Part shown: piece after piece, positions 366 through 27,144 of the stretch
Position numbering within the stretch: position 1 is the stretch's first letter
Layout of the letters: each line of letters opens with the position of its first letter
Origin: Phycisphaerales bacterium
GTDB lineage: Bacteria; Planctomycetota; Phycisphaerae; Sedimentisphaerales; Anaerobacaceae
NCBI GenBank assembly: GCA_003141315.1
Contig: PLLP01000002.1
Coordinates: forward strand, 1-64,000
DNA: 64,000 bases
Direction of reading: 5' to 3'
Position numbers and translations under genes: made by a program
The notes under the pieces: model-generated
Database searches by the model: none
Seen by the model: the letters and a program-made list of their open reading frames with translations, nothing else
Told to the model about the DNA's origin: nothing

Positions 366-1177
366 TTTGTTGTCTCCAGTTTTACCGCAAGATTAAATAG
401 GGCAGCCGAATGAATCTGGCTTACGCGAGGCTCCGATATTTCGAGAGTCTCGGCTATCTGCTTCATCGTAAGCTGCTGCTGATAATATAAAATGATTACC
501 TGCCTTTGCTTCTCCGCAAGAGAAGCAATCGCACCGGAAAGTTCCCCGACAAGTTCCGCCCGCTCCATCTGCTCATCCGGCTTAAGCGTCCCCGCAGACG
601 CCAGTACCTCTCCGAGAACAGGGTCGCTTTCCTCGAATCCGTCTATCGACAAAAAATGTTTGGCACGGGCCGCCTGGAAGGTATCGTAAAGTTTCTCAAT
701 CGGCACACCCAGTTTTTCCGCAAGCTCCTCATCGCTCGGCAGACTGCCGCTCTCCGCAAAATGCTGCTGGCTCGCGTTCATCGCCCGCTGAAGCTGATGA
801 TGAGTCTCCGCCGGCAGCGGGCTGGAATTTCGCAACTCATCGAGAATCGCCCCCTTTATCCGCGTATAAGCATAAGTCTTGAACTCAGCCTGAAACGAAG
901 GGTCGTAATCGCGTGCCGCCTTCACCAGCCCCACCATCCCCGCCGACACAAGGTCGTCCATAGTAAGTGGCGGCTTCAAATATGTAATCACCTTCTGCGC
1001 TATCTTGTGAACCATCGGCAAAAGCTGGACGATTTGGCTGTCGTCTATCGGCGGCTGCTTCTGGTCCATATACGTCCGTCGGGCCGCCGCCTTTAAATGG
1101 CTGCTCTCATCCTCTACCGCAACCCCGGCGGGCTGCTGCTCATCGGATTCGGATTTCTTTTCAGTATTCCGGCTCAT
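362..1177 (-). CDS. fliA: RNA polymerase sigma-28 factor for flagellar operons (FliA/WhiG family)
   Basis: The 271-residue protein has the sigma-70-family core regions. Region 2 includes DLVSAGMVGLVKAARDYDPS and FKTYAYTRIKGAILDELR; regions 3 and 4 end in a helix-turn-helix around LTMKQIAETLEISEPRVSQI. In the family this factor directs late flagellar genes such as flagellin and chemotaxis genes. About 45 extra N-terminal residues precede region 2 compared with enterobacterial FliA. The start lies inside the end of the preceding membrane-protein gene (17-base overlap). No sigma-28-type promoter was convincing in this window, so its targets probably lie outside. Confidence 0.93.
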   Translation of the reverse strand: MSRNTEKKSESDEQQPAGVAVEDESSHLKAAARRTYMDQKQPPIDDSQIVQLLPMVHKIAQKVITYLKPPLTMDDLVSAGMVGLVKAARDYDPSFQAEFKTYAYTRIKGAILDELRNSSPLPAETHHQLQRAMNASQQHFAESGSLPSDEELAEKLGVPIEKLYDTFQAARAKHFLSIDGFEESDPVLGEVLASAGTLKPDEQMERAELVGELSGAIASLAEKQRQVIILYYQQQLTMKQIAETLEISEPRVSQIHSAALFNLAVKLETTK

Positions 1178-1406
1178 TCTTTTGTCTCTTCTGGTTATCG
1201 AGGAACTTCGAGATTAACACGTCGAGCAGAACAACGTTTATAATTTTTACAGTCACCGCCGTCGCTGCATAAACGGCAAGAGCGCCGATTATCGCCCGGC
1301 TGCATATCGTAGAAGGAGCAAGACCGCAGCAAATCCCGATTACGCACAGCAGAAAAAATGCTAAAACAGCTACTCTTATCGCATTTGCTCTTACATCCAG
1401 CGGCAT
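1161..1406 (-). CDS. small two-helix membrane protein between flhA and fliA
   Basis: This 81-residue protein has two predicted transmembrane helices, at about residues 10-30 and 37-62, and a charged C-terminus. It overlaps the start of fliA by 17 bases and lies 43 bases downstream of flhA, so it belongs to the same transcript. I recognise no family. Being embedded between the export-gate gene and the sigma-28 gene suggests a flagellar membrane accessory, but nothing in the sequence proves it. Confidence 0.7.
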   Translation of the reverse strand: MPLDVRANAIRVAVLAFFLLCVIGICCGLAPSTICSRAIIGALAVYAATAVTVKIINVVLLDVLISKFLDNQKRQKNEPEY

Positions 1407-1449
1407 ACAAACGAACCTTTCTTATTATTGCTAACTCTTTTTATTTTTC

Positions 1450-3603: not shown

Positions 3604-3605
3604 AT

Positions 3606-4025
3606 TTATTTCTTATTTTCCTGACCAGCCGGCTGTGCAGCGGGCTTGCCCGTTACGGCTGAGGGGGTAGTGCTGATACTCAGAATCTCTTTTATGCGAA
3701 CGGCAAATTTATCCTCCACCACCACGATATCGGCTGTCGCGAACCGCGAACCTTTAAGATAAAGCTCGACAGGGTCGTCAACGGATTTGTCGAGCGTCAA
3801 AACCGAGCCGGGCCCAAGCTGCAAAAGCCGCCGAACCTCCACCTCAGAGCTGCCGATAACCACCGATATCGGAACGTGAACGTCCAGCAAAACATCGAGG
3901 CTGCCTTTCGGTCCCGAATCCCTGACGGCAGGAGCCTGCGGATATTCCACACTGCTTACGGACGTCTTTACCTGTTCAGTCCCCGCACCCTGAACGTCCT
4001 GTTTTTCCTCTACTGCTGCTTCCAT
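3606..4025 (-). CDS. fliN: flagellar motor switch protein FliN
   Basis: The 139-residue protein has a C-terminal SpoA/SPOA domain from about residue 40 to 115 (LDVLLDVHVPISVVIGSSEV, then LLQLGPGSVLTLDKSVDDPV), the fold of FliN and of the FliM C-terminus. In the family it builds the C-ring that sets rotation direction and binds export components. A Gln/Pro-rich segment flanks the domain on each side. It follows fliM by 64 bases and precedes flhA by two. Confidence 0.95.
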   Translation of the reverse strand: MEAAVEEKQDVQGAGTEQVKTSVSSVEYPQAPAVRDSGPKGSLDVLLDVHVPISVVIGSSEVEVRRLLQLGPGSVLTLDKSVDDPVELYLKGSRFATADIVVVEDKFAVRIKEILSISTTPSAVTGKPAAQPAGQENKK

Positions 4026-10857: not shown

Positions 10858-13212
10858 CTAACCTCCCAGTGTTTTTAACTGCTGCTGAAGAAGGGTGAGT
10901 GTTGATTCAAGTCTTGCATATTTGGCAGTAAGGGCTGCCTGTTTCTGGTCAAGCCTTGTCTGTTCCTGGTCTATTTTGTCCTGAAGCTGATTTATCATAT
11001 CCGTTGATTCCTGCTCATCAAGCTTGATTGAGCCGGTTGTCGTGGCAAGCATATTAGTAAGCGAATCCTCGAGTGCGCCGGCGAAGCCCTGCTTGACGCG
11101 GACCGTTGCGTTAATCGGACCGGACTGGCTCAAGTCAACCGACAACTGCAGGCCGTTTTCGGAATACACGGGTTTGTTGTTACTGTCGAAGGTGCTGTTG
11201 CCGGTGATGATATTTCCATTTACTGTCATAGCGCGATATGTCGATTCACCCGCCATTTTTATCTGTGCGCTCTCGATAGCGCCGTTTGTGATGACTACCT
11301 GGACATCGTAGCTTCCTGCCGTGGTGTAATTACTGGATGCGCCATAGAACTTGACGGTGTTGCTGTTGGAGCTGCCTGTCTTATCCGCACCTATGAGAGC
11401 CAAAGTCCCCATATAGTCCTTGGCCACAGCATCATCGAATGTAGTCGAATCAAAGCTCAACTGCCCCTTCGCGTCAAGCTGCAGGCCGATATGCCCCGGC
11501 GTAAGGAAAGTGTCAAGATCCTGAATAAACCCCTTGGCCTGCATAATCAGAGGATTATTAAGCTCCGAGTTTATGTTTGTCACCACACTATCGCCCATCA
11601 GGTCGCCGGCTTTTTTGGTGGTTGTATCATATGATGTATTGTCGCTGATGTACTTGACAACATCATTATACGCACTGACCATTGTGCTGATTTTGGTCTT
11701 TATGGATTCAATATCCCGTGTAAGGGTCACATCGACCGTCCCCGTGTTGTGAAGATGCAGCGTCACGCCGCCTATAACATCGTCAACCGTATTCGAGCTT
11801 CGTCTTATCCACCCGTAATTGTCGCCTTTCGTCTGCTCGGCCATTACATAGTTCGATTGCCCCGACGGCGTAAGACCGCTCGGGTCTATTGAAATCATAT
11901 TTACGTCGCCCGCTGTATCCTTGAACGTAAAGTTCATCGTGCCGCTCGCATTAAGCGCACTGCCGCTCACGGTAATATCGCCCGGCTCAACGTTCGAAAG
12001 CGCCTCAAGAGCAGTTTGGATTGTGGCCGTATTCGCATCATAAGCAATCGGGTCAGTTGTCTGGCCGCCATAAGTAAGTCTGAATGTCCCCGCCGTCGCA
12101 GCCGCAGTTTTAGTAAGCGTCTGAACCTCGGCAACGCCGCTTTGCGGAGTCGGATACCCGTCCACGCGAATCTCGCTATCCTGTGCGGACTGCGTCTCCG
12201 AAAAATCCGCCTGCGTAAATCCGCTAAGGTTCGCCGGGGTCAAACCGCCTTTTGTCAGTTCGCTGATTGCCGGCAGAGAGAGCGACGAGCCGGGGGTCGG
12301 CGTATCCGGGTCATCATACGCAAGCGAAAGCGTCATCTGGCTCGTGCCGCTGGTATTATCCGCCAAAACAATTTTGCCGTTCTCAAATGTAGCAGTCGCA
12401 CCGCCGCCAAAGGCATCGTTAATCTCGCTGATAATATGAGATACCTTCGTATTGCTGTTCACATCCATATAGGTATCGACCGCGGTGCCGTCATGCTTTT
12501 TGCCGGTAATGTGAATCCGCTCATTGCCCGACAGTGTTCCGCTGAACTGGTCGAGTTCCGTTATTTTTGTACTCAGGGTTGCATTTGCCCCGCCCTGCGT
12601 TAATTCCGTACCGGTCTGCCACACCTCGGTATTGCTCGGGTTCACCGAAATCGCGTAATCGCTGCCCGCATCGTTGCCGCTGAGAACCAAATGATACTTC
12701 TGGTTAAAGTAAAGAAGGCTCGCCGTCACACCGGGATTGTTCGCATCGTTATTTATCCGGTTCGCAAGGTCCTGGAGGGTGTCACCGGCCGTTGTCGTCA
12801 CCGCCGTCTCCTTGTGATTGTAAGAATAAATAAACGTCCCCGCCCCCACGCTGTCCTCCGCATATTCGAAACCGGCTGCGTGTACCCACCTGTCCGCTGT
12901 TGCCAAACGATTTACGATGACAGAATGATTCCCCTCATAAGCGTTATATGACGCATCTGCGGTCACTAAGTCCTCGTCGCTCGTCTTGGCAGAATAACCG
13001 CGAAGCTGGTCCGAATCGGAAAGGTCGGCAACAGAGGTTTTCAGGGTGCTGAGTTTGGTCTCTAAAGCATTAAGGTCGCTCTGTTTCGTCTGCCAGGTGG
13101 CTTGCCTCGTCTGATACATCGTCATCGTGCGCTTCTCGACAGCCATCAGCTGCGCTATCAAAGTACTTGTATCAATCCCCGTTGAAAGACCTGACAAACT
13201 TATCGTTGACAT
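10858..13212 (-). CDS. fliD: flagellar filament cap protein FliD (hook-associated protein 2)
   Basis: The 784-residue protein begins like FliD (SLSGLSTGIDTSTLIAQLMA), has coiled-coil segments at both ends and closes with a heptad-rich C-terminus (QDKIDQEQTRLDQKQAALTA). FliD caps the growing filament and helps flagellin fold. At 784 residues it is much longer than the roughly 470 of enteric FliD; the excess lies in the surface-exposed middle, which has several Ig-like, Thr/Ser-rich stretches. GAGGT lies nine bases before the ATG. No sigma-54 site is visible in the 121-base gap upstream, so it may be read through from the glycosylation block or use a sigma-28 promoter I could not recognise. Confidence 0.93.
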   Translation of the reverse strand: MSTISLSGLSTGIDTSTLIAQLMAVEKRTMTMYQTRQATWQTKQSDLNALETKLSTLKTSVADLSDSDQLRGYSAKTSDEDLVTADASYNAYEGNHSVIVNRLATADRWVHAAGFEYAEDSVGAGTFIYSYNHKETAVTTTAGDTLQDLANRINNDANNPGVTASLLYFNQKYHLVLSGNDAGSDYAISVNPSNTEVWQTGTELTQGGANATLSTKITELDQFSGTLSGNERIHITGKKHDGTAVDTYMDVNSNTKVSHIISEINDAFGGGATATFENGKIVLADNTSGTSQMTLSLAYDDPDTPTPGSSLSLPAISELTKGGLTPANLSGFTQADFSETQSAQDSEIRVDGYPTPQSGVAEVQTLTKTAAATAGTFRLTYGGQTTDPIAYDANTATIQTALEALSNVEPGDITVSGSALNASGTMNFTFKDTAGDVNMISIDPSGLTPSGQSNYVMAEQTKGDNYGWIRRSSNTVDDVIGGVTLHLHNTGTVDVTLTRDIESIKTKISTMVSAYNDVVKYISDNTSYDTTTKKAGDLMGDSVVTNINSELNNPLIMQAKGFIQDLDTFLTPGHIGLQLDAKGQLSFDSTTFDDAVAKDYMGTLALIGADKTGSSNSNTVKFYGASSNYTTAGSYDVQVVITNGAIESAQIKMAGESTYRAMTVNGNIITGNSTFDSNNKPVYSENGLQLSVDLSQSGPINATVRVKQGFAGALEDSLTNMLATTTGSIKLDEQESTDMINQLQDKIDQEQTRLDQKQAALTAKYARLESTLTLLQQQLKTLGG

Positions 13213-13333: not shown

Positions 13334-16300
13334 TCAGCTCGTCTGGCAAACCGCTTTATTCTGCGCCGCGGGCGTTTTTTTCAGGACCTTCTCGCATCTT
13401 TGGAGCATTTGCTGCAGCCGCTCGCTGCCGGGGTCATCGGCAATGCACCGTTTCAGCTCATAGCAGGCCATTTGTCTGGCCGTCTGTGCAAACAGCGAAT
13501 GATTGGCGTCCGCATAAACCTGCCCGATTGTCAAATACGTCAAAGCCGTTAAAGCCCTGCCGTGAAGCCCTCTTTTGGCCTCCTCAATCTTCCCCCACTT
13601 CACGTCCGGGAACAATTCATCATACCCGAATGTATCCGTGAACCGTTTAAGAACCTTGAACTGACACTTCGCCTTTTCGATATTGAGCGTCCTCGACAAA
13701 CTGTCTTTCGTTATTCGCCGCAGATACAGCGGAGAACTCAACCCCCGCATCACAATATCGCCTTTCACCGCCCGCCTCATCATATCGAAGTCTTCCGCAA
13801 CCACCAGGCCTTCTTCGTAAAGACCGATTTTCTCGAATACCGCCCGCCTGATACATCCCCTGAACGGCACCACAGGAAAATTGCAGCGGAATAAATCCCG
13901 CACAAGAAATTTCCTTTCAGTGTATACCGGCCTCTTTATCACGCGGATTGGTTTTTCCTGCTCGTCAATAAGTAAATCATCGCAATAAATCAGATCGGCT
14001 TCAGGATTCTTTTCGAATGCTTCGAGATGACTGCTTATATAATTCGGCGCCATCATATCGTCGGCATCAAGTAAAACCACCATCGACCCGCTCGAATTTT
14101 TTAGCCCGAAATTCCGCGCCGATGCGAGCCCCCCGTTATCCTTATGCACATACTTAATCTTCTCGTCCTTAAATCCCTCTGTGATTTTACGGGTCTGGTC
14201 CGTCGAGCCGTCATCCGCGACAATCAACTCGAAGTTCCTGTAATTCTGAATCAGAACGCTCTCAATCGCCGCCTTTAGGTACTTTGCCGCATTGTAGGCC
14301 GGCATAATAACCGAAACCAAAGGATTGTCCCTGTTCTGATAAACCGGTATTACGGATATGTAAGGATTGCCGTACCTCTTGCCGACAAGATACCGCTCGT
14401 AGAAGCTGTGAATCTTTCTGCCGTGTTCGATTCCGCTTTCATTATGGTAATACAAACCCAGAAATTCCGGAATATGACCGAACTGGAATTTTTCCGATAC
14501 TCGCAGCCAGAAGTCCCAGTCGCCGGCGCAATCGAGCGTCTCATCGAAATAACCAAGTTCGTCGTGCAGCCGTCTTCGCCACATCGGCTGCGAGCCTACG
14601 CAGCAGCCGAAAAGCAATCTGCCCCTGCTGTATTCAGGCCTGCGCGCAAAATCCTTCCCCTGATGCTCATCGAAGCTGTCGTTCTCCGTCTTTGTCACTA
14701 TCTGGTCGCCATAAACCAGCGCAGCATCATTATTCGCCAAAAGTGTCTTTGCCATTACCTCAAGGGCGTCCCTGCGATGACGGTCATCGGTATTGGCATT
14801 GGTCACAAACTCGCCCTCCGCCGCCTTTACCGCCCTGTTCCAGGCTGCGTAAATCCCCTCACGCTCTTTTGTCTTGATATATTTTATGTTATTGTATTTT
14901 TCCTGATATTTTTCGACAATTTTTTCTTCGTTCTGCCGCGAGCCGCTGTTGACAACTATAATTTCGAGCCGGTCTGCTATTGTCTGACTTTCCAAATCAT
15001 CGAGACAGCCCTTGATATATTTTTCCGCATTGTAGGTCGAGACGATTGCGCTAACAAGATACCGCCTGTTGGCCGGCAGCACGGCGGCTCTATTTACCAG
15101 TTTCTTTTCCAAAATTTTATCGCCGTCCGCCGCTGCGGCCAGGCCGGCTGGCTCGATAGGAACTGTCTTGCCTTTTTCTTTCGGGCTCGACTTTTTGCCG
15201 TCTGTCTCCGCCGAATTGCGTAAGCCTTCCCCTACGACAACGGAACTGGAGATGGGAGGCGAACCGCTCACAGCAGCAAGGGTCGGCAACCTGGAAGGTG
15301 AACCGTTCGCCGGGGCAGAACCCGCCGCTTGCCGGGATGGAATCTGGCGCTCGACGGGGCGAGGCTCTGCTTTCGCCGGAACAGAACCCGCTGTCTTGTT
15401 CGCAGGCAATTTTCCCGTGAAATAGTTCTGGATTATTTTTTTCGCATCGCCCTGGAAATGAAGAATGTTGAAGCCTACAAGCTCGCCGGTGGAAACAAGC
15501 TTGCCGTGCGGCTTGCCGTCTACCCAATAAATTTTCTTTACGCCGTTCTCCATCTCAAAACCTTCGGCTCCATTTATGTTGTGGTCGAAATTTGAGCCGT
15601 TAAAAATCCCAGATATATCTGCTATCCTTCCAGGGTGTCTTTGCCGGAAATTACCGAAGAGGGTCATATCGCTTATGCCCTCCAGACCTTTACCTCGCAG
15701 CGGCGCAAAAAAATCCTCCATCTGCTGCAAAGTCGTCGGGGCTGTATAGCTCTGTACCAGGAAGCTGCAGAACTCGTCCAGTAAATCGACGTCGCTTATA
15801 AAATTGCAGTGCGGGCTTGAGCCGCATGAGACAGTCATACCGGAATTTGCAAACCGTTGCCAATGCTCTGACACATCAGTATAAATCATTATATCCGAAT
15901 CAGGACACACACATCCCCTTATGTTCTTCGCCCTCAGAAAATCCCTGATAACAAACCATCTCTCGAAACACTTCAGCTCGAATTGATATGTGTTGGGGCT
16001 GAGGTGTTTATAGACGCGTTCAAATCCCTGTGCGGACCGGCAGTACTGTGTATAATCAATGTGCTCCACAAAATCGTACTTGTCATTGGCCTCGTCCCCG
16101 ATGAGATATATTTTCGATTTCGGATTGGATGCGTGAGCCTGCGCAATCGCGTATTTCAAATGCTCGCCGTCGCCCAGGTGAACGAACACTATCGGAATAC
16201 TTTCAGCACCCTCCGGAATCTTTGCTGAAGGTTCGACGCTATCAACACTATCGACACTATCAACACTGCTGAGATTTTTCAACGCTTCGATTATCTCTGT

Positions 16301-19300
16301 ATCGCCTGAATTTTCCCACAAATACCCTTTATAAACCTCCGCTGCCTTGGCGGGTTTGCCACCCTCCAAAAACTTCTTCGCAGAATTACACACAAGGCTT
16401 CTCGCTGTATCGGGCTTCCCCCCGCGAATAAGAACGCCCGCAGCATTTATAATCCCGGGAATGTAAGCGGAATCGATTTTGAGCGTCTTGAGAAAATACC
16501 TCAAGGCGTCTTCCGTCTGGTCTTTCCGCAAATGCAGAAGCCCCATATTATTATACACAGCCGTGAAGTTCGGAAGTATCCGCACCGCCTCCGTAAAGCT
16601 ATTCATCGCACCGGCGTTATCCCCCTTATTCAGCTGGTGCTCACCGTATCGATTCAGCTCGACTGCCTTCTGGTAATCCTCGTAAGAAATGTCGATGGTA
16701 ATATCCGCGCCGGCATAATCAGCAACATTGACCGATTTAATCTTCTGACCGTCGGCATTGCCTGTCCGCTGCGATTCTATCTCCAAAAATTCCAGAATGC
16801 AGGGGCCGCTGCTCTCATACAGAATTTTCGTGTATTCGTCCTTATTCCGCACCTGTTCCGCCTTTTTAATGAAAAAGTGCGCATAGGTCGAAAGCATCCT
16901 CGCCAGTAAATCCCACCTGCCTGAAAGCGACCCCGATGCCGCCTGCTCGCATATCCTCTCACGCAGATACCCGTAAAGCTTGCCGCCCAGCAGGAACCAT
17001 TGCTTTTCATCCCACTTCCACGGATGCTTTATATGGTATGCGAATGGCGAAACGAGTTTCTTAACCGGGTATCCCGCCAAAATCGCGGTCAGCGGCACCC
17101 AGTAATCCCACCAGGTCGCACCGATACAGAATTCGGATTTGGGAAATTGCGACACAAGCGCCCTGTCGAAAAAGAAAAAGTCAAAGCCGTTCTTATATAC
17201 CTCGCCCTTCAGATTTTCCAGCGACTCGACTTCTATTCTGGAACCATAAACAAGAGAATTCTTCGCCTCGCTGCGTATAAATGAAACGATGTTGTCATCG
17301 CCCGACAAATAGATATCCGAATTTACAATCCCGCATATCTCACTATTCGCCTGGCCTATATATTCCAGAATATCGTCCAAATACACGAAAGGCTTGCCGA
17401 GAACGCTTTTTGCGTCCCGTTTTGCCTGAACGAAATTTACATCGGGAAAATACTCCTGCAGTATTTCAGTTTCTTCGCGGCTGTTTATGGAAACGACACA
17501 AAAGCCGAGTTTGTGCCAGCTTCTCACCGCCCTGACTTGCTTGGCGATTTCTTTTGGGGCGATGCTTGTGACAATTGTCAGGCCGCTATCTTTTTGTTTC
17601 GCATCCCCGGCTTCGGGTGAAAATCTCGTCTCTGCGGTGGTGCTCCGGCCGAGATGGATAATCTCGACAGTGTTCGTATCCACAAATTTATCGAACATCT
17701 CCCATTTTGGTTCACCGGTTTCGGCTTTCCAAAGAGAGGTATCCTGAACGAAAACCCGCGGCTTGTCCTTCTGCTCTGCGAGCGTCTGGCCAACGGCCTC
17801 TGCGACAACCCGCGGTTTTACATCCTCGATGCAGTGAACCCTCTGGTACGGGCATTTCCAGCTGCACCCGTAGCATTCCAAAGGCAAACTTACCAGCGAA
17901 GTTAGCGGCGAATACGGAGCGAATCTGCCGAAATGCCCGCCGCCAATAATTATAACATTCGGACAGCCCGCCGCCGCCGCTATATGACCCGCCGCAGATT
18001 CAGCCCCGATGCAAACACAGCTTTTCTCCAGAACCGCCGCCAGTTGCCGCAGCGTTGTTTTGCCGCATAGATTGTAAATCCTCTTGTGCCTCGTCAGCTC
18101 GATAATCTGCTCGCCCGTCTCGTAATCCTGCGTCGAGCCGCAAATCAAAACCGGCCTGTCTTCATAATTATTTATCAGTGCCGCCCACTTATACTCCGGC
18201 CAGTTTCGTATATCGAATTGCCCGAACGGGCTTATCACTATAGGCTTCTCAACCTTCAACTCCGACAAAAGCCGCTCCGCCTCCGCCCTGTCCTCATCCG
18301 TAATCCAGACCTGCGGCTTCACAGCCTCATCCGGTTTGATTCCCATCCTCCTGATGAACTCCTCGTTGCGGCTGGTTTCCATCATCGAAATCGTGCTTGC
18401 GGGAACAAGTTTGGTATATAAGCCGTCATTCTTCGACTTCTCTCCGATGGAAATATTCGAATTATCCCCGAGCGACGCTATCGTTATCTTCGCCCCGCAG
18501 CTCAAAGTTAAAAAGTCGCCTGTATCGTCCCGCGAATACACTGGGTTGATTGCCACATCGAAATTTTCCAGTTCGAGCTGCCGCAAAAGACCTTCCGTGT
18601 AAATCTCATCCGTGAACAGGCTACTCCTCGAAAAGGAAATAACCTTATCGGTATACGGACATTTTTCCAGCAGTTCCGCAATGTGCTTCTGCACGAGAAT
18701 CGAAATCGAAGCCTTCGGAAAAATCACCCTGAAATATTTCAGTATCCCGGAAAAAATCACCACGTCGCCGATAGAATCGGGGCGTACGATTAAAAGCTTT
18801 TTTACCTCCGCGGCCTCAATAACTTTCTTTTGCGATAAATTCACATTCCGGATTTGCGACGTCCGTTTTATCCCGGCAATCTCCCCGCCGTCCGAATCCG
18901 CCTCTTTTTTCCTGCATACCGTTTTTCGCCCGCCCGTCACAAACATATCATCAGGGAAATAGCCAGGCAAAATCTCTTTTATTTTGAGACCCGATGCCTC
19001 GAAAAGTTTTTTTATGCTGTCCTGGTTATAAAGGTACAAATGTTCAGCTGGACGGAACTGCGCCCATTTGCTGTCTTCACCGTAATAACAAGGCGTCTGG
19101 AATACGAATGTCCCATCGTCCTTGAGCAGGTTTGCGACCTCTTTAAACGCCCTTACGGGGTCGGAAAAATGTTCAGCCACGTCGAAGCCGGTTATCACGT
19201 CGAACTTTTTCAGCGGCAATTCGACTTCCGGAAACAGTCCGCTCACAACGTTAGGCAGATTGAAGCCTTCCCTCGCAAATTTGCACGTTCGTTCATCCGG

Positions 19301-19660
19301 CTCTACCCCGACAACCGTTTTAATCCCGTTTCGCCGGCAATGAAAAAGAAAACCCCCGTGAGCGCAGCCGATTTCAAGCAGGCTTTCGGCTCCGGGTTTA
19401 TTTCTTTTTACAAGGTCGTACCACACAGGGATGCGATTCTCGAAATCATCTTTAGCCCTGTCCTCTATCGGCGGATATTTCGACACGCCGGTCATATAAG
19501 TATGCCAGTAATTATCGAAACCGTAAAACTTCTTAAGCTCTTCTGACGACGGGCGGTTTTTCAAAACCAAAGTCCCGCACTCCGCGCACCGACCATACAT
19601 CGGGTGTACCGAGTCCTGCAGCCCTCCGCCGCACCAGCACCTTTTATCGCTTTCTCTCAT
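13334..19660 (-). CDS. giant multi-domain methyltransferase/glycosyltransferase/TPR protein (2108 aa)
   Basis: In one frame the protein carries: a zinc-ribbon-like Cys cluster (residues 8-28) with a class I SAM methyltransferase (about 30-245, EIGCAHGG at 96-103); a GT9 heptosyltransferase-like domain (about 288-630, VRPDSIGDVV at 292-301); a glycosyltransferase-like segment (690-900, NSDIY); TPRs (998-1120); a further glycosyltransferase-like domain (1153-1405, PDSDIMIYTD); a low-complexity linker (1415-1515); and two GT2 domains (1535-1740 with NTDD, 1781-1990 with DADD). A helical tail closes it. The context is fliD downstream and other glycosyltransferases upstream, under a sigma-54 promoter. 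It most likely builds and transfers a glycan onto filament proteins in the cytoplasm. The acceptor is inferred. Confidence 0.85.
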   Translation of the reverse strand: MRESDKRCWCGGGLQDSVHPMYGRCAECGTLVLKNRPSSEELKKFYGFDNYWHTYMTGVSKYPPIEDRAKDDFENRIPVWYDLVKRNKPGAESLLEIGCAHGGFLFHCRRNGIKTVVGVEPDERTCKFAREGFNLPNVVSGLFPEVELPLKKFDVITGFDVAEHFSDPVRAFKEVANLLKDDGTFVFQTPCYYGEDSKWAQFRPAEHLYLYNQDSIKKLFEASGLKIKEILPGYFPDDMFVTGGRKTVCRKKEADSDGGEIAGIKRTSQIRNVNLSQKKVIEAAEVKKLLIVRPDSIGDVVIFSGILKYFRVIFPKASISILVQKHIAELLEKCPYTDKVISFSRSSLFTDEIYTEGLLRQLELENFDVAINPVYSRDDTGDFLTLSCGAKITIASLGDNSNISIGEKSKNDGLYTKLVPASTISMMETSRNEEFIRRMGIKPDEAVKPQVWITDEDRAEAERLLSELKVEKPIVISPFGQFDIRNWPEYKWAALINNYEDRPVLICGSTQDYETGEQIIELTRHKRIYNLCGKTTLRQLAAVLEKSCVCIGAESAAGHIAAAAGCPNVIIIGGGHFGRFAPYSPLTSLVSLPLECYGCSWKCPYQRVHCIEDVKPRVVAEAVGQTLAEQKDKPRVFVQDTSLWKAETGEPKWEMFDKFVDTNTVEIIHLGRSTTAETRFSPEAGDAKQKDSGLTIVTSIAPKEIAKQVRAVRSWHKLGFCVVSINSREETEILQEYFPDVNFVQAKRDAKSVLGKPFVYLDDILEYIGQANSEICGIVNSDIYLSGDDNIVSFIRSEAKNSLVYGSRIEVESLENLKGEVYKNGFDFFFFDRALVSQFPKSEFCIGATWWDYWVPLTAILAGYPVKKLVSPFAYHIKHPWKWDEKQWFLLGGKLYGYLRERICEQAASGSLSGRWDLLARMLSTYAHFFIKKAEQVRNKDEYTKILYESSGPCILEFLEIESQRTGNADGQKIKSVNVADYAGADITIDISYEDYQKAVELNRYGEHQLNKGDNAGAMNSFTEAVRILPNFTAVYNNMGLLHLRKDQTEDALRYFLKTLKIDSAYIPGIINAAGVLIRGGKPDTARSLVCNSAKKFLEGGKPAKAAEVYKGYLWENSGDTEIIEALKNLSSVDSVDSVDSVEPSAKIPEGAESIPIVFVHLGDGEHLKYAIAQAHASNPKSKIYLIGDEANDKYDFVEHIDYTQYCRSAQGFERVYKHLSPNTYQFELKCFERWFVIRDFLRAKNIRGCVCPDSDIMIYTDVSEHWQRFANSGMTVSCGSSPHCNFISDVDLLDEFCSFLVQSYTAPTTLQQMEDFFAPLRGKGLEGISDMTLFGNFRQRHPGRIADISGIFNGSNFDHNINGAEGFEMENGVKKIYWVDGKPHGKLVSTGELVGFNILHFQGDAKKIIQNYFTGKLPANKTAGSVPAKAEPRPVERQIPSRQAAGSAPANGSPSRLPTLAAVSGSPPISSSVVVGEGLRNSAETDGKKSSPKEKGKTVPIEPAGLAAAADGDKILEKKLVNRAAVLPANRRYLVSAIVSTYNAEKYIKGCLDDLESQTIADRLEIIVVNSGSRQNEEKIVEKYQEKYNNIKYIKTKEREGIYAAWNRAVKAAEGEFVTNANTDDRHRRDALEVMAKTLLANNDAALVYGDQIVTKTENDSFDEHQGKDFARRPEYSRGRLLFGCCVGSQPMWRRRLHDELGYFDETLDCAGDWDFWLRVSEKFQFGHIPEFLGLYYHNESGIEHGRKIHSFYERYLVGKRYGNPYISVIPVYQNRDNPLVSVIMPAYNAAKYLKAAIESVLIQNYRNFELIVADDGSTDQTRKITEGFKDEKIKYVHKDNGGLASARNFGLKNSSGSMVVLLDADDMMAPNYISSHLEAFEKNPEADLIYCDDLLIDEQEKPIRVIKRPVYTERKFLVRDLFRCNFPVVPFRGCIRRAVFEKIGLYEEGLVVAEDFDMMRRAVKGDIVMRGLSSPLYLRRITKDSLSRTLNIEKAKCQFKVLKRFTDTFGYDELFPDVKWGKIEEAKRGLHGRALTALTYLTIGQVYADANHSLFAQTARQMACYELKRCIADDPGSERLQQMLQRCEKVLKKTPAAQNKAVCQTS

Positions 19661-19683: not shown

Positions 19684-20004
19684 TCAAAGGTTCTGCTTAT
19701 ACGCACTTATTGTCTTTCTGCCTTTGCGGACTTTTCCGAGACTCTCGGCAATCTCCCTCTGCTCAGCCTTTATCGCCAGGCACAGCTCGTCATAAGTTCT
19801 TGCCAGCTTCTCTTTATTCCCGCCAAACCTGTCCTGCCGAAGTATCTTCGACTGGGCAATCCATTTGACAAGCACGTCTGCCTGTTTGTTGAGATGCTCG
19901 AACCTCGCGGAATCGCTCCCGCCCCGCCGCGTAAGCTCTATCTGCTTTTCCAGCAGATTCTGAAGGCCCTGCAAAATATTCGCCTGTCTTTCTTCTGTCA
20001 CCAT
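19684..20004 (-). CDS. small helical protein in the glycosylation block, possible flagellar chaperone
   Basis: The 106-residue product (start MVTEERQANILQGLQNLLEK) is almost wholly alpha-helical and charged, with heptad-like spacing. The size, charge and location among filament-related genes resemble FlgN/FliT-type chaperones, but I see no diagnostic motif. An in-frame GTG 33 bases upstream would overlap the TPR gene; the ATG at 20004 is preferred because it leaves the upstream gene intact. It is 23 bases upstream of the giant glycosyltransferase gene. Confidence 0.65.
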   Translation of the reverse strand: MVTEERQANILQGLQNLLEKQIELTRRGGSDSARFEHLNKQADVLVKWIAQSKILRQDRFGGNKEKLARTYDELCLAIKAEQREIAESLGKVRKGRKTISAYKQNL

Positions 20005-20024
20005 ATTTTTTCTATCCGTTATTT

Positions 20025-20648
20025 CTATACCTGACACGCCGCCGCAAGCTGATGCTCAACCTCCTCTAAAAGTTTGACGGCATCGGCATTCGAACCATCC
20101 AGCGCTAAGATATTCTGCAGCGTTTGTTTCGCATCCCGCAGCCGGTTATCCTTCATATACAGCGCCGCCAGCGTGAACATTACTGACGTATCCGCAGGGT
20201 GCATATTCAAATATGTTTCGAGATAAAAGATAACCTTCGAAAACGAACCCATATAACACGACGTCTGAAACAGCCCGAGAAGACTCGCAAGGTTGTCGCT
20301 GTCCAATTCGAGGCTCTTCAAATACATATCGAAGGACTGGCTGTGAGACCCTTTTCTCTGCAAAGCCATCGCAAGACCCGCATAAGCCTTCGAGCTGTTC
20401 TTGTCAAGGCGAACCGCAATCTTGAACGCAGACTCCGCGTCGTCAAGAAGGTCCTTCTGCAGCGCTATCACCCCAAGCCCTATATACGGCCCCGCCTCAT
20501 CAGGCCCAAGCGACGCCGCCTGCTCGTAGCAATCCTGCGCCGAAACAAAATTTCCCACACACGCAAAACAATCCCCCAAATCCTGCAATACCTCGTAATG
20601 CTGCATCGGATACCCTTTTTCGTCATTTATATTCTTAACTATTTCCAT
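20025..20648 (-). CDS. TPR protein of the glycosylation block
   Basis: The 207-residue protein consists of about five tetratricopeptide repeats (for example AQDCYEQAASLGPDEAGPYI and LDDAESAFKIAVRLDKNSSK). The start at 20648 is chosen because AAGGAG lies ten bases upstream. It overlaps the end of the preceding glycosyltransferase gene by 14 bases. Such TPR modules accompany O-GlcNAc-transferase-like and flagellin glycosylation systems and probably act as a protein-protein adaptor here. Confidence 0.82.
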   Translation of the reverse strand: MEIVKNINDEKGYPMQHYEVLQDLGDCFACVGNFVSAQDCYEQAASLGPDEAGPYIGLGVIALQKDLLDDAESAFKIAVRLDKNSSKAYAGLAMALQRKGSHSQSFDMYLKSLELDSDNLASLLGLFQTSCYMGSFSKVIFYLETYLNMHPADTSVMFTLAALYMKDNRLRDAKQTLQNILALDGSNADAVKLLEEVEHQLAAACQV

Positions 20649-22203
20649 ACAGATAATCTCCTTTGAGGACGCTCCTTGCGCTTTCGAGAAGCTCGATGGC
20701 ACGCGAAAAATCCCGGCTCTTTTTGTGTATCCTCGCTTCGAGCAGAAGCGTATCCACCGTCGGCCTGCTGGCATTTACCTTTTTCACAAGTTCAGCGGCC
20801 CTGTCGTCATCTCCCGCCTTATGCAAAGCGCCTGCCACCAGGCTCTTCATCCATAACTCGTTCTGGTAATGTTCCGCGATGTATTCAAAAATCTCCGCTG
20901 CCTCATACCAGTTGCCGTTCCGGCCGGCCTGCTTACCCTGCTTTAAGAGACTATCGAACTGAAACGGTATCTCTTCGGGCGCAACCCTCTGGATTGTTAT
21001 CCCCGACTTCAGCACAGACTGCCGGACAGGCTCATTCGGAAAGAGCTTCCTCGCCTCCAGCAGTTCCTCTTTCCTGAACACCGCCGACCAAAGCTGGTCG
21101 CTCGATGACTCCATCTGGTATGCCTGATTCTTCTCTTTATTATTTATAAGTGCGTATAACGGCTCTTCCACCCACATATCATTTACAGGCAGATCCGCGG
21201 GCGCTATCGCCACAAACTCGCCCTCGCAATCCCTCAACGCCGCATCTATCTGCTGGTCCTGAGTCGCCAAAGCATCCACCGGCACACAAACAAGATTCGG
21301 CATATCCGTCCCGACATTACCCGCCGCCGCCGACACCGGAATATACAGCTTATACGGATAGAATGTCTGCTGCCAGATACTGCTCACCGTTTTTCCTGCC
21401 AGCCGGTCAAGCCGGTCAGCCATAAATATAATTGATAAATCCTTTAATTTGCTCCACGGCTTGGCGGGCCTCGTTGTCCTTATCGAAAGAAAATTCGTCG
21501 CAAATCCCGCTGAATCCTTCCGCTTCAGAAACGATATCCGGTCGTTATCGCTTACCGGTGCGTAAAATTCGCCCGTCACGTCCGCCACGTGGTAAAAATC
21601 CGTAAAGAAGACAAGCCTTCTTGTCATATCCCAGTCTATCAGGGCGGTCACCTTCTCATTATAAAGGCCGGTCTTTTCCAGAATATCTCTCGTGTGCATC
21701 AGGCTTACGTGCAGAACGTGGTTGAAATACAAAATAAAAAAGCGGTCGAAGTCCCTGCTGATTTCCACGAACTTGCCAAGAACCTGCCTGCTCCCATCGG
21801 GAAGAATCCGGCAGTACGTTTTATACAGGTCGCTGTATGCCGCCTGGCAGTCCGTTTTGTTCTCCAGCGCATCGACCAGCGTGCTTACATGGTGCGGATA
21901 ATACAGGTCGTCGTCGCCGAGATAACAAATATATTTGCCCGTCGCCCTGCCAATCGCCTCGTTAAGCGAATGCGGCAGGCCCCGATTATCTTTGCGGTCT
22001 ATAAATACGATTCGCGAATCATTAAACGAACCAACAATATCGCCCACCTCTTCCCCGCCGTCCCGGATTACAAAAATTTCCAGGTTCCTGTAATCCTGAC
22101 GCACAATGCTCGACAACGAAATAGGCAGATACCGCCGCCTGTTGTATGTCGACAACAGAACGCTCACCTTCGGCTCATTTGTTGTTCCGTTTTTCTGTGC
22201 CAT
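20635..22203 (-). CDS. family 2 glycosyltransferase with C-terminal TPR
   Basis: The 522-residue protein opens with a GT-A fold (KVSVLLSTYNRRRYLPISLS) with metal-binding LGDDDLYY near residue 95. A second, degenerate GT2-like region follows at about 250-370, and a TPR tail at about 410-520 (YEAAEIFEYIAEHYQNELWM). GT2 enzymes transfer sugars from nucleotide sugars. It sits between a GT-B enzyme and a TPR protein in the sigma-54-driven block, 22 bases from the preceding gene, which suggests filament glycosylation. Confidence 0.85.
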   Translation of the reverse strand: MAQKNGTTNEPKVSVLLSTYNRRRYLPISLSSIVRQDYRNLEIFVIRDGGEEVGDIVGSFNDSRIVFIDRKDNRGLPHSLNEAIGRATGKYICYLGDDDLYYPHHVSTLVDALENKTDCQAAYSDLYKTYCRILPDGSRQVLGKFVEISRDFDRFFILYFNHVLHVSLMHTRDILEKTGLYNEKVTALIDWDMTRRLVFFTDFYHVADVTGEFYAPVSDNDRISFLKRKDSAGFATNFLSIRTTRPAKPWSKLKDLSIIFMADRLDRLAGKTVSSIWQQTFYPYKLYIPVSAAAGNVGTDMPNLVCVPVDALATQDQQIDAALRDCEGEFVAIAPADLPVNDMWVEEPLYALINNKEKNQAYQMESSSDQLWSAVFRKEELLEARKLFPNEPVRQSVLKSGITIQRVAPEEIPFQFDSLLKQGKQAGRNGNWYEAAEIFEYIAEHYQNELWMKSLVAGALHKAGDDDRAAELVKKVNASRPTVDTLLLEARIHKKSRDFSRAIELLESARSVLKGDYLYGNS

Positions 22204-22225: not shown

Positions 22226-23731
22226 TTAATTGCTCGCCAAAACCGCCTTGTCGCTCACCGCGCCTTCGCCGATGCCTGCGAAGCTAAACACCCCCGCAGC
22301 AACACCGGACGTATTCAAATCATTCCGCTGTGTGCCGATTTCAGCTTCGAGACCCGTAAAAATTTTATCTATCTGGCAAAGCTGACCCTTCAGCGGATAC
22401 CTTTCCTCAACAAACGAACGGTATCTGCCCGGCTCATACTTGTCCGATAGAATTTGTACGCAAAAATCCTCCGAAATACTGAATAAATATTCCGAACCGA
22501 AAATCTCTTCTGCGCCGGGGAAGTTGTGAATCACCGGCTTCAGTCCGCTCGCCATCGCCTCCAGAATCCCCATCCCCTGGCTCTCGAATATGCTGCCTGA
22601 AACGATAAAATGTTTGTCCGCCAGCCAGCCCTTTATGTCGTCCTGCCAACCGTCGAAAAATACCACTCCCTCCAAGCCCATCGACTTCACCGTATGCCTC
22701 AAATATTGTTCGAGGCAGTAATCCTGGAAATTCCCGGCAAAATAAAGCTTATACCCGGGGTCGATGTAATGCAGCTTCTGCATACATTGCATCAGCAGCA
22801 TCGGGTTCTTATGCGCATTCAAAAAGCCCACGCAGGCTATATTTTTTCCTCTCGGCCGGCCCGTGAATTTGAATTCATCGAGGTTGACGCCGTTCGGTAT
22901 CACAACAACTTTCGTCCGCCTCTCTATGCCGGGAACCTGCTTAACCAGCGCCTGCTTCACAAAAGAATTGCCCACCAGAACTAAGTAGTCGATATTTTCC
23001 CACCTTACCTGTCCCGGCCAGTCACCATAAGCCTCGAAGCGATGCAGCCTCACAATATTTTTACACACTTTCGGCTGCCTCGACGCCTCCACCGCAAGGT
23101 CCGTGCACCATTCATACCAGCAGATGTCGCTGCTGCTCATAACCTCGCGAAGCTCATTCACCGCCGACACCTCGCAAAACCGCGCAGGGTATCGGGCAGT
23201 CGTGTATCCCAGAATATCCGTCAGGAATGTCGTTCCATCCTTCAGGCCGCTCATAAAACTTATCTTTGGCCTCGTGTTGCGGGTTGCCGCTATCATCGGC
23301 TCAAGAATTCTCTGCTGTTCCGGCCAGTAATTCAGCGATAACTGCATCATATCCAGCGATGCCGACCGGTTGCCCTTGTTGAGATACACATTGGCCGTGC
23401 GGTTCACGACGTCGGCACTGAGAATGCCGGCCTTCCGCATATCATCGAAATACCGCGACGCATCATTAGGCCTGCCCGCCGCAAGATATGCCTCGACAAG
23501 ATTCCAGATTACATTGGGATTCTTGTTCTGCATTGTCCCGGCTCTTAAAAAATAAACTATCGCCTCATCGTCCCTGCCAAGGCAGTGAAGAACCGCACCG
23601 ATATCGTTGAGGATTTCCGCATCAGGCTCTTTATACCGAAGATGCTCCTGCAGGTAAAAAAACGCCTCGTTATACTTGCCGGCCTCCGCAAGCGACAATC
23701 CCTTCTGATAATTATTTCCCGTCTGTTCCAT
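22226..23731 (-). CDS. TPR-GT4-like glycosyltransferase, first gene of the glycosylation block
   Basis: The 501-residue protein has N-terminal TPRs (about 1-150) and a GT-B glycosyltransferase (about 180-460), with the family signatures VVIPNGVNLDEF and, near the nucleotide-sugar site, SIFESQGMGILEAMASGLKP. The ATG at 23731 is preferred over an upstream in-frame ATG because GAGG lies nine bases before it and the alternative N-terminus is unlike TPR sequence. A sigma-54 promoter lies about 90 bases upstream. A TPR fused to a glycosyltransferase recalls enzymes that recognise protein substrates directly. Confidence 0.86.
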   Translation of the reverse strand: MEQTGNNYQKGLSLAEAGKYNEAFFYLQEHLRYKEPDAEILNDIGAVLHCLGRDDEAIVYFLRAGTMQNKNPNVIWNLVEAYLAAGRPNDASRYFDDMRKAGILSADVVNRTANVYLNKGNRSASLDMMQLSLNYWPEQQRILEPMIAATRNTRPKISFMSGLKDGTTFLTDILGYTTARYPARFCEVSAVNELREVMSSSDICWYEWCTDLAVEASRQPKVCKNIVRLHRFEAYGDWPGQVRWENIDYLVLVGNSFVKQALVKQVPGIERRTKVVVIPNGVNLDEFKFTGRPRGKNIACVGFLNAHKNPMLLMQCMQKLHYIDPGYKLYFAGNFQDYCLEQYLRHTVKSMGLEGVVFFDGWQDDIKGWLADKHFIVSGSIFESQGMGILEAMASGLKPVIHNFPGAEEIFGSEYLFSISEDFCVQILSDKYEPGRYRSFVEERYPLKGQLCQIDKIFTGLEAEIGTQRNDLNTSGVAAGVFSFAGIGEGAVSDKAVLASN

Positions 23732-23821
23732 AACTGCCGCCTCAAAAAAACAGGTTGCTGTTTTTCGCATTCCGTATTCCCCCCGCCGACACAAAAAAGA
23801 CCTTTTTCCTGCTGTTAAAAG

Positions 23822-23950: not shown

Positions 23951-25153
23951 TTACTGCGTTGTTGAAGTTGAAATATAATCGAGCAGTGATATTGACATCA
24001 TTTTCGCCGCTACCGACAGCGACATCTGATACAAAACCTGCTGCCTCGACAAATCTATGGAAATCTGCGCAATATCGGCATCCTCAACAGCCGATGTCTG
24101 GTCCTCCGCCTGATTCTTCAAATCGGTCAGATTGGTTTTGAGGTCATCGAGAAAATTTATCTTCGTGCCGTTCGTCACACTCGTCTGCAAAACACGATTG
24201 ATTACCTCGTCCAATGAATTATAAGCGCTGTTGCAGGCCTGCTTCAGCTGGTCTGTCGATAATCCCTTGTCGTTCTTGAGCGTATCGCGAACCGCTATCA
24301 GCGTATTGAATACGTCATAAGTACCCGGTACACGCACAAGCTCAACACCCGTCTGGTTAATTCCGGTTGTATCAACGTAAAGAACTTTGCCCGTCCTGCT
24401 GTCGGTCACCGCCTGGTTTGCTTCGCCGCCCGCAGGAACGGTCGTATAAGTAAGCCCGTCATCTATGGATACTTTATAATTGCTGCCGTCGTTAATCACC
24501 GTCAGCCACACGTCGCCATTCACGTTCGACGTGCCTGTCCCTGCCTTTGCGCCCGTCACATTCGAGAACACCGGCGCGCTGCGGTCATTGGAACCGAAAA
24601 TATCTTCACCCACAGAAAAAATGTTCATTGTCACAGCGGGGGCAACCTCGACGCTCCGCTCGCCGCTGGCACCGTTATAAACCACCCCCGTAATCTTGCC
24701 GTCTGTCCTCTCAACTGTATAAGGAGCTGTGCCGGTGCTTGTGCCTCCGAAAAGATACTGGCCGTTACTTTTGGAATTGGCATACTGAACAACCTGCTCC
24801 AGTATCTGGTCCACCTGTTCGGCTGTCCTCGCCCTGGCATCGTCGCTATACGTACCGCTCGTCACCTGGCTTAATACGTTTCTCACCTGCGCGAGCGACT
24901 GCTTTATATTCTGGACTATCGTATCCGACGATTGGAGAGTGTCCGAGGCCGACGAAATATTATCAATATAATTTCCAAGAAGCTCCTGCTGCGATTTAAG
25001 ACCGAGAATCTGATAAGAACCGGTCGGGTCATCCGATGCCCGGTTCACCCTCGAACCGCTCGATGCCTGCTCCTGCAGCTTCGCCATCGCCATCATATGC
25101 TGGTTAAGGGCATAATTTATATTATTATAAATGCTGTTTAACGACCCGCTCAT
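23951..25153 (-). CDS. flgL: flagellar hook-filament junction protein FlgL (HAP3)
   Basis: The 400-residue protein has the flagellin-like N-terminus (NNINYALNQHMMAMAKLQEQ, then GSRVNRASDDP) and C-terminal helix (LSRQQVLYQMSLSVAAKMMS) that form the D0/D1 coiled coils. FlgL joins the hook to the filament together with FlgK. I place the start at the ATG at 25153, with GAGG six bases upstream; a GTG at 25174 overlaps the flgK stop and is less likely. It ends the flgD-flgL operon. Confidence 0.94.
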   Translation of the reverse strand: MSGSLNSIYNNINYALNQHMMAMAKLQEQASSGSRVNRASDDPTGSYQILGLKSQQELLGNYIDNISSASDTLQSSDTIVQNIKQSLAQVRNVLSQVTSGTYSDDARARTAEQVDQILEQVVQYANSKSNGQYLFGGTSTGTAPYTVERTDGKITGVVYNGASGERSVEVAPAVTMNIFSVGEDIFGSNDRSAPVFSNVTGAKAGTGTSNVNGDVWLTVINDGSNYKVSIDDGLTYTTVPAGGEANQAVTDSRTGKVLYVDTTGINQTGVELVRVPGTYDVFNTLIAVRDTLKNDKGLSTDQLKQACNSAYNSLDEVINRVLQTSVTNGTKINFLDDLKTNLTDLKNQAEDQTSAVEDADIAQISIDLSRQQVLYQMSLSVAAKMMSISLLDYISTSTTQ

Positions 25154-25173
25154 AACGCCTCGCCAATAATTCA

Positions 25174-27144
25174 CTACAATATTTGCATAATGGAATTCAC
25201 CGACGTATAAACCGCATTCAAATATTTCGACATCGCCGTGAACATCTGCTGGTACATCAGCATTGCCGCCGCCTCATCATTCACGTTCACGCCGCTCAAA
25301 TTGTCCTGCTGCGTGGTAAGCTCCTTCAGAACCGCTTCAGAACCGTTATAAACCGTCTGCTTTATCGATATATCCTCGCCAACGTCGCTCACGAGCCTGT
25401 GGTAATAATCCGAAACCGTCAACCCGTCGAGATTATCCAGCTTCTTATCCTTGAGTGCCGACAGCTTCAGGGCATTAGCGTTATCGGTTCCATCCGCACC
25501 CGCAGCAGCCGCTATCCGCGAAGGGTCGTTTGCGATTTCTGTGCAGACGGCAATATCCGAGGCGTCCTTACCTGAAAATAACGTGTTCATACCCGTCGCA
25601 ACTAAAAGCCCCGACGTGTCCGTGTTCGCGAATGCATCTACCGTAAAGCTGTCGCCGGCATTCAAATCGCCGGTGCCAAACGTTGCCTTCACCCCATCCG
25701 CCAATTCTATCACGTCGCCGGCGGCATAACCCTGCCCGACATTTATCGTATTAACGACGTCGCCGCTGCCGTCCCTCACTTCAATTTTAATATCACCGTT
25801 TCCGACCTGCCCGCCGTTCGCCACCGTGCAGCTATATGTCTGGTTGACCGTCCCCGTGTAATCCCCCGAAATCGTCACCGCGGGAGGCGTCGTCCCCGTC
25901 AAATTGCTCGTCGAAGGCTCCGGTGAAACCGCCGGCAAAAAATCGAACGTATATCCGGTATCCGCTGTAATGCGCAGCTTCGATGCATCCGCCGTCGCGC
26001 TCAAACCCGTAATCGTCGATATCTTCGCCGCTATCGTTGCGAGCGTATCGCTCGATGCATCGACGTCGACAGCGCTGCGGGTTGTCTTGCCCGTGGCTGT
26101 GTCGGTCACCCTTATATAAATCTTTCCGTCGGTTACCGGCACGCCCGCAGAGGAATAATCCGCTACCGAATCGCTGGTCATCGTCCTGCCCGCAAGCTCC
26201 GTAAATGAACCGGCTGAGCCGACCCCCTGAAAATGAACCTGGTTGACCTCGTTGATAATTGCCGCCGCCAGGTTATTAAGATTATCCTGAACACCGCTCA
26301 CAAGCTCGTTCGAAAGCGATAAAAGACCGCCGAGACTGCCCCCGCTGTAATCCGTGCTGTAATTGAACGAACCCTTCGCTGCGATTCCGATTTGTCCGTT
26401 TTGGTCGAGACCAGATTCGATTTGCGATGCTGACGAACCAACCACAAGCGGAATACTCCCGATGTTCACGTCAACTACCCCGTAATCCCTCTCGGTTGTA
26501 TCGACTCCAACCAGCTTCGACAGTTCGGTTATGCACTGGTCACGCTGGTCACGCAGATTATTCGCCTTTGTGCCGACAATTTCCAGCCTCTCAATATGGT
26601 CGTTGAGCTGGGCAATCGTGCTCGCGAGGTTGTTAACCTTCTCAACCACGTTGCCGGTCTCTAATTTCAGCTGATTCTGCAACGTCGATACCGTTGACGA
26701 CAACGTCCTGAATTGCGCTGCCATTGCGTTCGCGCTGCTCACCGCCTGGTTCTGATATATCGATTCCGCAGGATGCGAAACAAGGTCCTGCATCGAATTG
26801 AAAAAACTGTCTATCGCCGCATTCAGTCCGCCGCTGCTCGAAAACTCACTGAACGAGCTTTCGACCGTTTGCATTGTCTGCACTTCCTGCGAAAGCTGCT
26901 CTGAAACCGAATTCTGACGCAAAATCTGCTGTTCGAGAAGACTGTCAATTACCCTGGTCACGCCTTTAAAATCAACGCCGCCCCCTATCAGATTATCCCC
27001 TGTTTGCGAAGAATACGACGGGCTCAGATTAATCTGCTGGCGGTGATACCCATCGGTCGCAGCATTGGCGATATTGTTGCCGATTATATCCAACGCCTTC
27101 TGCGCCGCATCAATTCCGCTTAAACCTATTGAAAATCCCGACAT
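25174..27144 (-). CDS. flgK: flagellar hook-associated protein FlgK (HAP1)
   Basis: The 656-residue protein has the rod/hook-type N-terminal motif (IGLSGIDAAQKALDIIGNNI, then ANAATDGYHRQ) and the matching C-terminal helix (EAAAMLMYQQMFTAMSKYLN). FlgK is the first junction protein after the hook. The middle is enlarged with Thr/Gly/Asp-rich beta-structure, typical of surface-exposed domains. It is 43 bases downstream of the flgN-like gene. Confidence 0.95.
   Translation of the reverse strand: MSGFSIGLSGIDAAQKALDIIGNNIANAATDGYHRQQINLSPSYSSQTGDNLIGGGVDFKGVTRVIDSLLEQQILRQNSVSEQLSQEVQTMQTVESSFSEFSSSGGLNAAIDSFFNSMQDLVSHPAESIYQNQAVSSANAMAAQFRTLSSTVSTLQNQLKLETGNVVEKVNNLASTIAQLNDHIERLEIVGTKANNLRDQRDQCITELSKLVGVDTTERDYGVVDVNIGSIPLVVGSSASQIESGLDQNGQIGIAAKGSFNYSTDYSGGSLGGLLSLSNELVSGVQDNLNNLAAAIINEVNQVHFQGVGSAGSFTELAGRTMTSDSVADYSSAGVPVTDGKIYIRVTDTATGKTTRSAVDVDASSDTLATIAAKISTITGLSATADASKLRITADTGYTFDFLPAVSPEPSTSNLTGTTPPAVTISGDYTGTVNQTYSCTVANGGQVGNGDIKIEVRDGSGDVVNTINVGQGYAAGDVIELADGVKATFGTGDLNAGDSFTVDAFANTDTSGLLVATGMNTLFSGKDASDIAVCTEIANDPSRIAAAAGADGTDNANALKLSALKDKKLDNLDGLTVSDYYHRLVSDVGEDISIKQTVYNGSEAVLKELTTQQDNLSGVNVNDEAAAMLMYQQMFTAMSKYLNAVYTSVNSIMQIL

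Follow-up and report, generated by a model that had tools for sequence, protein, structure and literature searches.

In a 64-kb stretch of DNA (henceforth the window; positions 1 to 64,000 of contig PLLP01000002.1, assembly GCA_003141315.1) from an uncultured Phycisphaerales bacterium of the order Sedimentisphaerales, the flagellar operon contains one very long open reading frame (ORF) of 2108 codons (13334..19660, minus strand) in which a methyltransferase, several glycosyltransferases (GTs) and a block of tetratricopeptide repeats (TPRs) are fused into a single chain. We interpret this giant gene, with a probability of roughly 60%, as a cytosolic multi-enzyme builder of a glycan for the flagellar filament, and as a member of a family of modular fused glycosylation islands. 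As judged by comparison of related genomes, it belongs to an order-wide family of shuffled modular variants, the most notable addition to a first-pass annotation of this DNA, which had proposed that a methylated glycan is made stepwise, probably for filament proteins. Residue numbers below refer to the 2108-aa protein and nucleotide positions to the window.

The frame first annotated starts with ATG and has no internal stops. Its modules, all on the minus strand, follow the order methyltransferase, GT9, X1, TPR, X2, linker, GT2a, GT2b. The S-adenosylmethionine (SAM) methyltransferase (residues 1–250, 18911..19660; Pfam Methyltransf_23 at 82–227, E 1.4e-25) has a Cys-rich, zinc-ribbon-like N-terminal start and the motif LLEIGCAHG at residue 94. 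Next comes a heptosyltransferase-like GT9 module (residues 284–632, 17765..18811; Pfam Glyco_transf_9 at 447–600, E 8.7e-22) that also matches heptosyltransferase II (1psw, E 2e-8). The TPR block (residues 997–1125, 16286..16672) gives weak TPR_2/TPR_1 matches near the Pfam cut-offs and matches the TPR chains of OGT (E 6e-9). A Pro/Ala/Ser-rich linker (residues 1440–1530, 15071..15343) precedes two modules recognised by Pfam as Glycos_transf_2: GT2a (residues 1534–1768, 14357..15061; NTDD at 1623, GDWD at 1713) and GT2b (residues 1780–2100, 13361..14323, the match starting at about 1783; DADD at 1865, AEDFD at 1955), the conserved last module before fliD. Profile searches bear out the earlier calls of a methyltransferase at residues 1–250, GT9 at 288–630, TPRs (though weak) at 998–1120 and GTs at 1535–1740 and 1781–1990. 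Three of the claimed GTs are recognised by Pfam and a fourth by profile comparison, leaving fewer than three segments without a GT fold.

The window comes from a draft genome in 25 contigs, and repeated GT2 modules may mislead short-read assembly, so a fusion of several genes by assembly error, a concern already raised in the first-pass annotation, had to be weighed. We regard it as scarcely credible. The GC content per module lies between 0.485 and 0.515, reaching 0.60 in the Pro/Ala-rich linker alone, and GC at third codon positions (GC3) between 0.56 and 0.63; both are even along the gene and resemble those of the flagellar neighbours. Residues 1532–2099 share 63% identity, uninterrupted by stops, with a segment of a 2069-aa ORF of genome G016, which lies on a single chromosome record (CP070806), and the order GT2a-GT2b-fliD is joined alike in independent genomes, this chromosome among them. 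Giant ORFs occupy the same location in 44 further genomes. In close pairs of relatives, the ratio of nonsynonymous to synonymous substitution (dN/dS) is 0.07–0.44 over the full length of the giants, indicating purifying selection throughout and hence that the whole length is maintained. Taken together, these lines of evidence show a single gene and give no hint of joining by assembly. A sequence search of the 2.35-Mb genome found no second full-length counterpart.

To place the gene among its relatives, the DNA 5' of their fliD genes was annotated with profiles built from the window's own domains; the genomes are drafts from metagenomes, the loci were cut at about 19.5 kb and the domain strings depend on the profiles. 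A slot was called occupied when an ORF measuring 900 aa or more lay just upstream of fliD, and empty when the conserved edge gene adjoined fliD without such an ORF. Among 67 fliD loci of the order, 45 were occupied, 20 empty and 2 in neither class. The frame of the locus is conserved (flgK-flgL-[TPR-GT4]-[GT2-TPR]-TPR-FlgN-like-slot-fliD), and the content of the slot varies among close relatives, up to its complete absence. The largest ORF per occupied locus had a median of 1941 residues (range 1017–4014), and the 45 occupied loci carried 36 different domain strings, as seen with profiles that miss some module types. The first-pass annotation had suggested searching for the same architecture in related genomes; what recurs is a giant in the same slot, with its domain string shuffled. 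Pfam added pyruvyl transferase, capsule-synthesis, GT4, other methyltransferase and radical SAM modules (the last with B12-binding or SPASM domains) in other giants. The giants of 3706 and 4014 residues at two loci (L046, 3003-14123; L152, 598-12642) have radical SAM modules with such domains fused among their GTs. GT2b itself was found in 15 of 397 genomes of the class at E ≤1e-60, all within this order, and every copy lay in an uninterrupted ORF of 1132 aa or more. The C-terminal module has its relatives in Planctomycetota records, several of them named Phycisphaerae or Sedimentisphaerales.

The presence of the neighbouring GT2-TPR gene follows that of the giant. Counting only loci with a visible upstream edge gene, 15 of the 16 occupied loci have it and none of the 20 empty ones does (p 3e-9); since relatives are not independent, the count by genus is fairer, with 14:1 for occupied against 0:12 for empty slots (p 7e-7). 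This association bears on whether the giant builds an envelope glycan (lipopolysaccharide (LPS) core or exopolysaccharide) and is merely located in a flagellar operon, as a heptosyltransferase-like GT9 and the many GT2 matches to polysaccharide enzymes might suggest. We consider this unlikely, given that, across many genomes, the slot is flanked by the FlgN-like gene and fliD and that its occupation tracks a flagellar neighbour. The other TPR-linked gene, TPR-GT4, is present at four empty loci as well, and other empty loci retain its TPR part alone (e.g. L134, L136, L137, L144 and L164), which suggests that this part has a flagellar role separate from glycosylation.

Comparisons between relatives indicate that the giant family appears to evolve by exchange of modules, the module being the unit of exchange. 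The clearest case is a pair of genomes from one genus, G784 and G785, in which the C-terminal 1286 residues of the giant are 82% identical (85.5% in DNA over 4.5 kb), fliD is common to both and the DNA is conserved again upstream of the giant (88%), while the N-terminal parts are unrelated (best chance match E 0.9); the junction is the start of a GT2 module. X1 lies between GT9 and GT2 in G692 and is absent between the same modules in G032, and a block of about 570 residues distinguishes the giant of G573 from that of G706. Synonymous divergence is uneven along the giants in three close pairs, with none of 2000 codon shuffles as uneven; fliD, GT2-TPR and TPR-GT4 of one such pair, which are shorter and give less power, show no such unevenness. 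The window's own modules have their nearest relatives in different genomes: a free-standing 266-aa gene of G036 for the methyltransferase (54% identity), G677 for GT9 (49%), G692 for X1 (50%), G545 for GT2a (75%, modules in G545, G787 and G785 all being at about 75%) and G022 for GT2b (58%). Its fliD is nearest to that of G803 (64%), whose giant strongly shares the C-terminal module only.

Related modules in G045 and G698 are split and fused differently, over two or three ORFs. Together with the low-complexity linker at 1440–1530, such splits might speak for a giant that is cleaved after translation into separate enzymes, the fusion serving mere co-expression. The chain is nevertheless intact at most loci, and no protease or cleavage signal was found, though none was sought; we hold cleavage to be very unlikely. 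One further layout was seen in genome G001, where the giant (L039, G001:C1:1160000-1179000) ends beside a 109-residue N-terminal fragment of fliD, and a complete fliD, accompanied by a C-terminal piece of GT2b, lies about 113 kb away (L122, G001:C1:1036000-1055500). This layout amounts to either a rearrangement or a duplication, broken within the giant as well as within fliD.

Two modules have no match in Pfam, PHROGs or PDB sequences (residues 660–985, X1, and 1150–1430, X2), and the same holds for their relatives. The first-pass annotation had called GTs in both (residues 690–900 and 1153–1405). For X1 (domain at residues 695–985, 16706..17578), Pfam gave nothing, and profile comparison recovered a GT2-like domain of the GT-A type: hhalign against the GT2 modules returned a probability of 89% (E 2e-6, 163 columns), with the NSD of X1 at the position of the GT2 DxD motif. 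Controls with GT9, the methyltransferase and GT4 each scored below 1% and GT8 1.5%; as a yardstick, GT8 against GT2 gives 63%. X1 carries NSD at 780 and WWDY at 850, and its relatives, found in other giants of the order, conserve NSD/NAD, a GxDxFxF stretch and WWDY. We read X1 as a divergent GT2-like glycosyltransferase, a remote relative outside the listed Pfam members.

X2 (residues 1150–1430, 15371..16213) matched no database, and its motifs and gene context make a putative glycosyltransferase of an undescribed family the most likely reading. The giant has DSD at 1254, SDMT at 1330 and HFQGDAK at 1401, and DxD, DMT and HxQGxAK are among the invariant positions of the family. The H-x2-G-x2-K spacing recalls that of GT8 enzymes; hhalign against GT8 was weak (12% probability, 59 columns around DSD), and planctomycete GT8 proteins lent the GT8-like assignment weak support. 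No X2 relative was found within Sedimentisphaerales. Free-standing copies lie beside GT-like genes in 2 of 392 genomes of the phylum, and a search of viral contigs with a three-row alignment retrieved seven relatives, where a single X2 sequence had retrieved nothing. These viral relatives (large contigs L170–L176) are free-standing, are covered by no described family and sit inside sugar-modification gene clusters, whose other genes read as probable methyltransferases, aminotransferases and sugar-nucleotide isomerases. Structure models of X1 (three sequences; mean predicted local distance difference test score (pLDDT) 48, Foldseek giving generic Rossmann-type matches alone) and of X2 alone (mean pLDDT 42) were of too poor quality and were not used as evidence.

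Around the giant, the operon has the composition first described, with the two TPR-linked GT genes upstream and fliD downstream. Genes upstream run in the same direction (all on the minus strand): flgK (25174..27144; FlgK_D1, E 1e-51), flgL (23951..25174; TIGR02550, E 8.5e-68), TPR-GT4 (22226..23794, 522 aa, a candidate initiating flagellin transferase), GT2-TPR (20635..22203, 522 aa, a candidate flagellin transferase that co-occurs with giants), a 249-aa TPR protein (20025..20774) retained at empty loci too, and the FlgN-like gene at the upstream edge of the slot (19684..20037; weak FlgN match, E 0.003, below cut-off). At the downstream edge, fliD (10858..13212), which has homologues in synteny across the order, begins 121 bases past the giant. 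GT genes are in this way sandwiched between conserved flagellar filament genes. Within the order there are two forms of FliD, one of about 784 aa and a shorter one of about 690 aa that is missing a middle stretch (about residues 356–466). The flgL ORFs of L114 (501 aa) and L117 (514 aa) hold an insert of about 105 residues matching a middle part of fliD, apparently a surface domain common to fliD that has moved between filament proteins. The contig also carries the flagellin gene, 5.5 kb beyond the window and followed by a fliS-like gene; the flagellin has 269 aa, mostly terminal helical regions with a Ser/Thr-rich centre.

This position raises a further alternative, that the giant acts on a filament or hook-associated protein other than flagellin (FliD, FlgK or FlgL), or that the long TPR part serves chiefly as an export chaperone. 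The giant adjoins fliD downstream of flgK and flgL, and TPR-GT4 persists as TPR alone at several empty loci. Set against this, the described TPR-GT transferases modify flagellin (PMC7591256), and the short flagellin of this genome has a centre rich in Ser and Thr; we judge this alternative improbable, about as much so as an envelope glycan.

Glycosylation islands at this flagellar position, their variability and the logic of joining GT and TPR are already known. GmaR of Listeria combines TPRs and a GT in one soluble protein of the flagellar pathway, and its GT2 domain matches GT2b of the giant. FlmG of Caulobacter joins a flagellin-binding TPR domain to one GT and modifies flagellin in the cytosol (PMC7591256). 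In build, these two proteins are like the neighbours TPR-GT4 and GT2-TPR, and the giant likewise has TPR and GT in one chain, but FlmG and GmaR have one GT each and add a single sugar; the sugar of FlmG is moreover pseudaminic acid, and no NeuB, the synthase for it, turned up here. Neither a NeuB-type synthase (PF03102) nor a Maf-type protein (PF01973) gave a match in this 96.6% complete genome, unlike what Maf/nonulosonic-acid flagellin glycosylation would entail. In the flagellin glycosylation islands or flagellar hypervariable regions of Geobacillus (PMC5109656), Clostridium (PMC13317340) and Pseudomonas syringae (fgt1/fgt2 region, PMC3927599), as in the slot of the giant, variable GTs and methyltransferases lie between conserved flagellar genes (flgL, flagellin, fliD, flgB) and presence differs among strains; those islands consist of separate genes and the gene is the unit of exchange, whereas here domains of one chain (up to 4014 residues) are involved and the module is apparently exchanged.

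Fusions that, like the giant, combine a methyltransferase with two or more GT domains in a single chain have also been described. WsaE of the Geobacillus stearothermophilus S-layer glycan has an N-terminal methyltransferase and two GT domains, methylation capping the chain (PMC2943079), but it works on a lipid-linked chain that is later exported and transferred, and has three domains without TPR or flagellar locus. The chlorovirus proteins A064R and A111/114R are multidomain GTs (and methyltransferase) building the successive links of a glycan carried by a structural protein (PMC7019647), but their product is an N-linked capsid glycan, they have three domains and that report shows no sign of modular shuffling. 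In dGT1 of Streptococcus parasanguinis, two fused GT domains perform successive steps on a protein (PMC5063993), an ordered action like that proposed for the giant; its substrate differs (an adhesin), it has two GTs and it works when split too. The packaging had been held to be without a known precedent: its ingredients are described in the islands, FlmG/GmaR, WsaE and A064R, and no account of a fusion this large combined with shuffling of modules was found. In the open-licence literature we found no description of fused giant-ORF islands, of module-level exchange inside them or of planctomycete flagellin glycosylation.

The most economical account is a cytosolic line extending a core on flagellin that TPR-GT proteins have primed. 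TPR-GT4 and GT2-TPR would, in the manner of FlmG, grip flagellin by their TPRs and attach the first sugars. The giant, which has a TPR block of its own, would then lengthen this core, drawing on nucleotide sugars; its C-terminal GT2b, itself conserved, would work on the conserved core, and GT2a, X2, X1 and GT9 would add more. The N-terminal methyltransferase would methylate a sugar, perhaps as an end cap, before the modified flagellin is exported. From the nested presence of the three genes we infer that they act in the order TPR-GT4, GT2-TPR, giant. The cap, GT2b as first module and the sugar identities are guesses; the reaction order, the sugars and the activities of X1 and X2 are presumptive, and GT9 need not use heptose.

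Several points weigh against this interpretation. GT9 domains usually indicate work on LPS, TPRs are able to bind other flagellar proteins, and X2 may prove not to be a glycosyltransferase. The operon itself lacks the flagellin gene, though this is on the same contig, and some relatives have fliD and other flagellar genes but no giant, which makes the giant dispensable for flagella. The tie of the locus to a flagellin glycan, and with it flagellin as the giant's substrate, is one that we infer. A stepwise line for a methylated glycan on a filament protein, as first proposed, is still the best-supported reading: its fused enzymes and flagellar setting are real, and the filament protein is the presumed substrate.

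Across the order, the slot edges and usually the last module are kept, with upstream modules swapped, inserted, lost, split and fused by recombination, so that related species should carry different filament glycans. A more far-reaching proposal, which we offer as possible but doubtful, is that the slot holds a family of glycan assembly-line megaenzymes in which the module list spells the filament glycan, GT2b takes over from TPR-GT-primed flagellin and homologous modules recombine as in polyketide synthases.

These loci give an initial view of the genes for filament glycosylation in the phylum Planctomycetota. They point to two undescribed GT-like families, X1 and X2, and for glycoengineering the giants may represent multi-step glycosyltransferase chains supplied by nature. 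As a rule, bacteria diversify their surface glycans by exchanging whole genes; here the apparent unit of exchange is a domain inside a giant gene, and glycan diversity might be readable from the module string, in a way that can be tested in species differing by a module (G692 and G032, G784 and G785).

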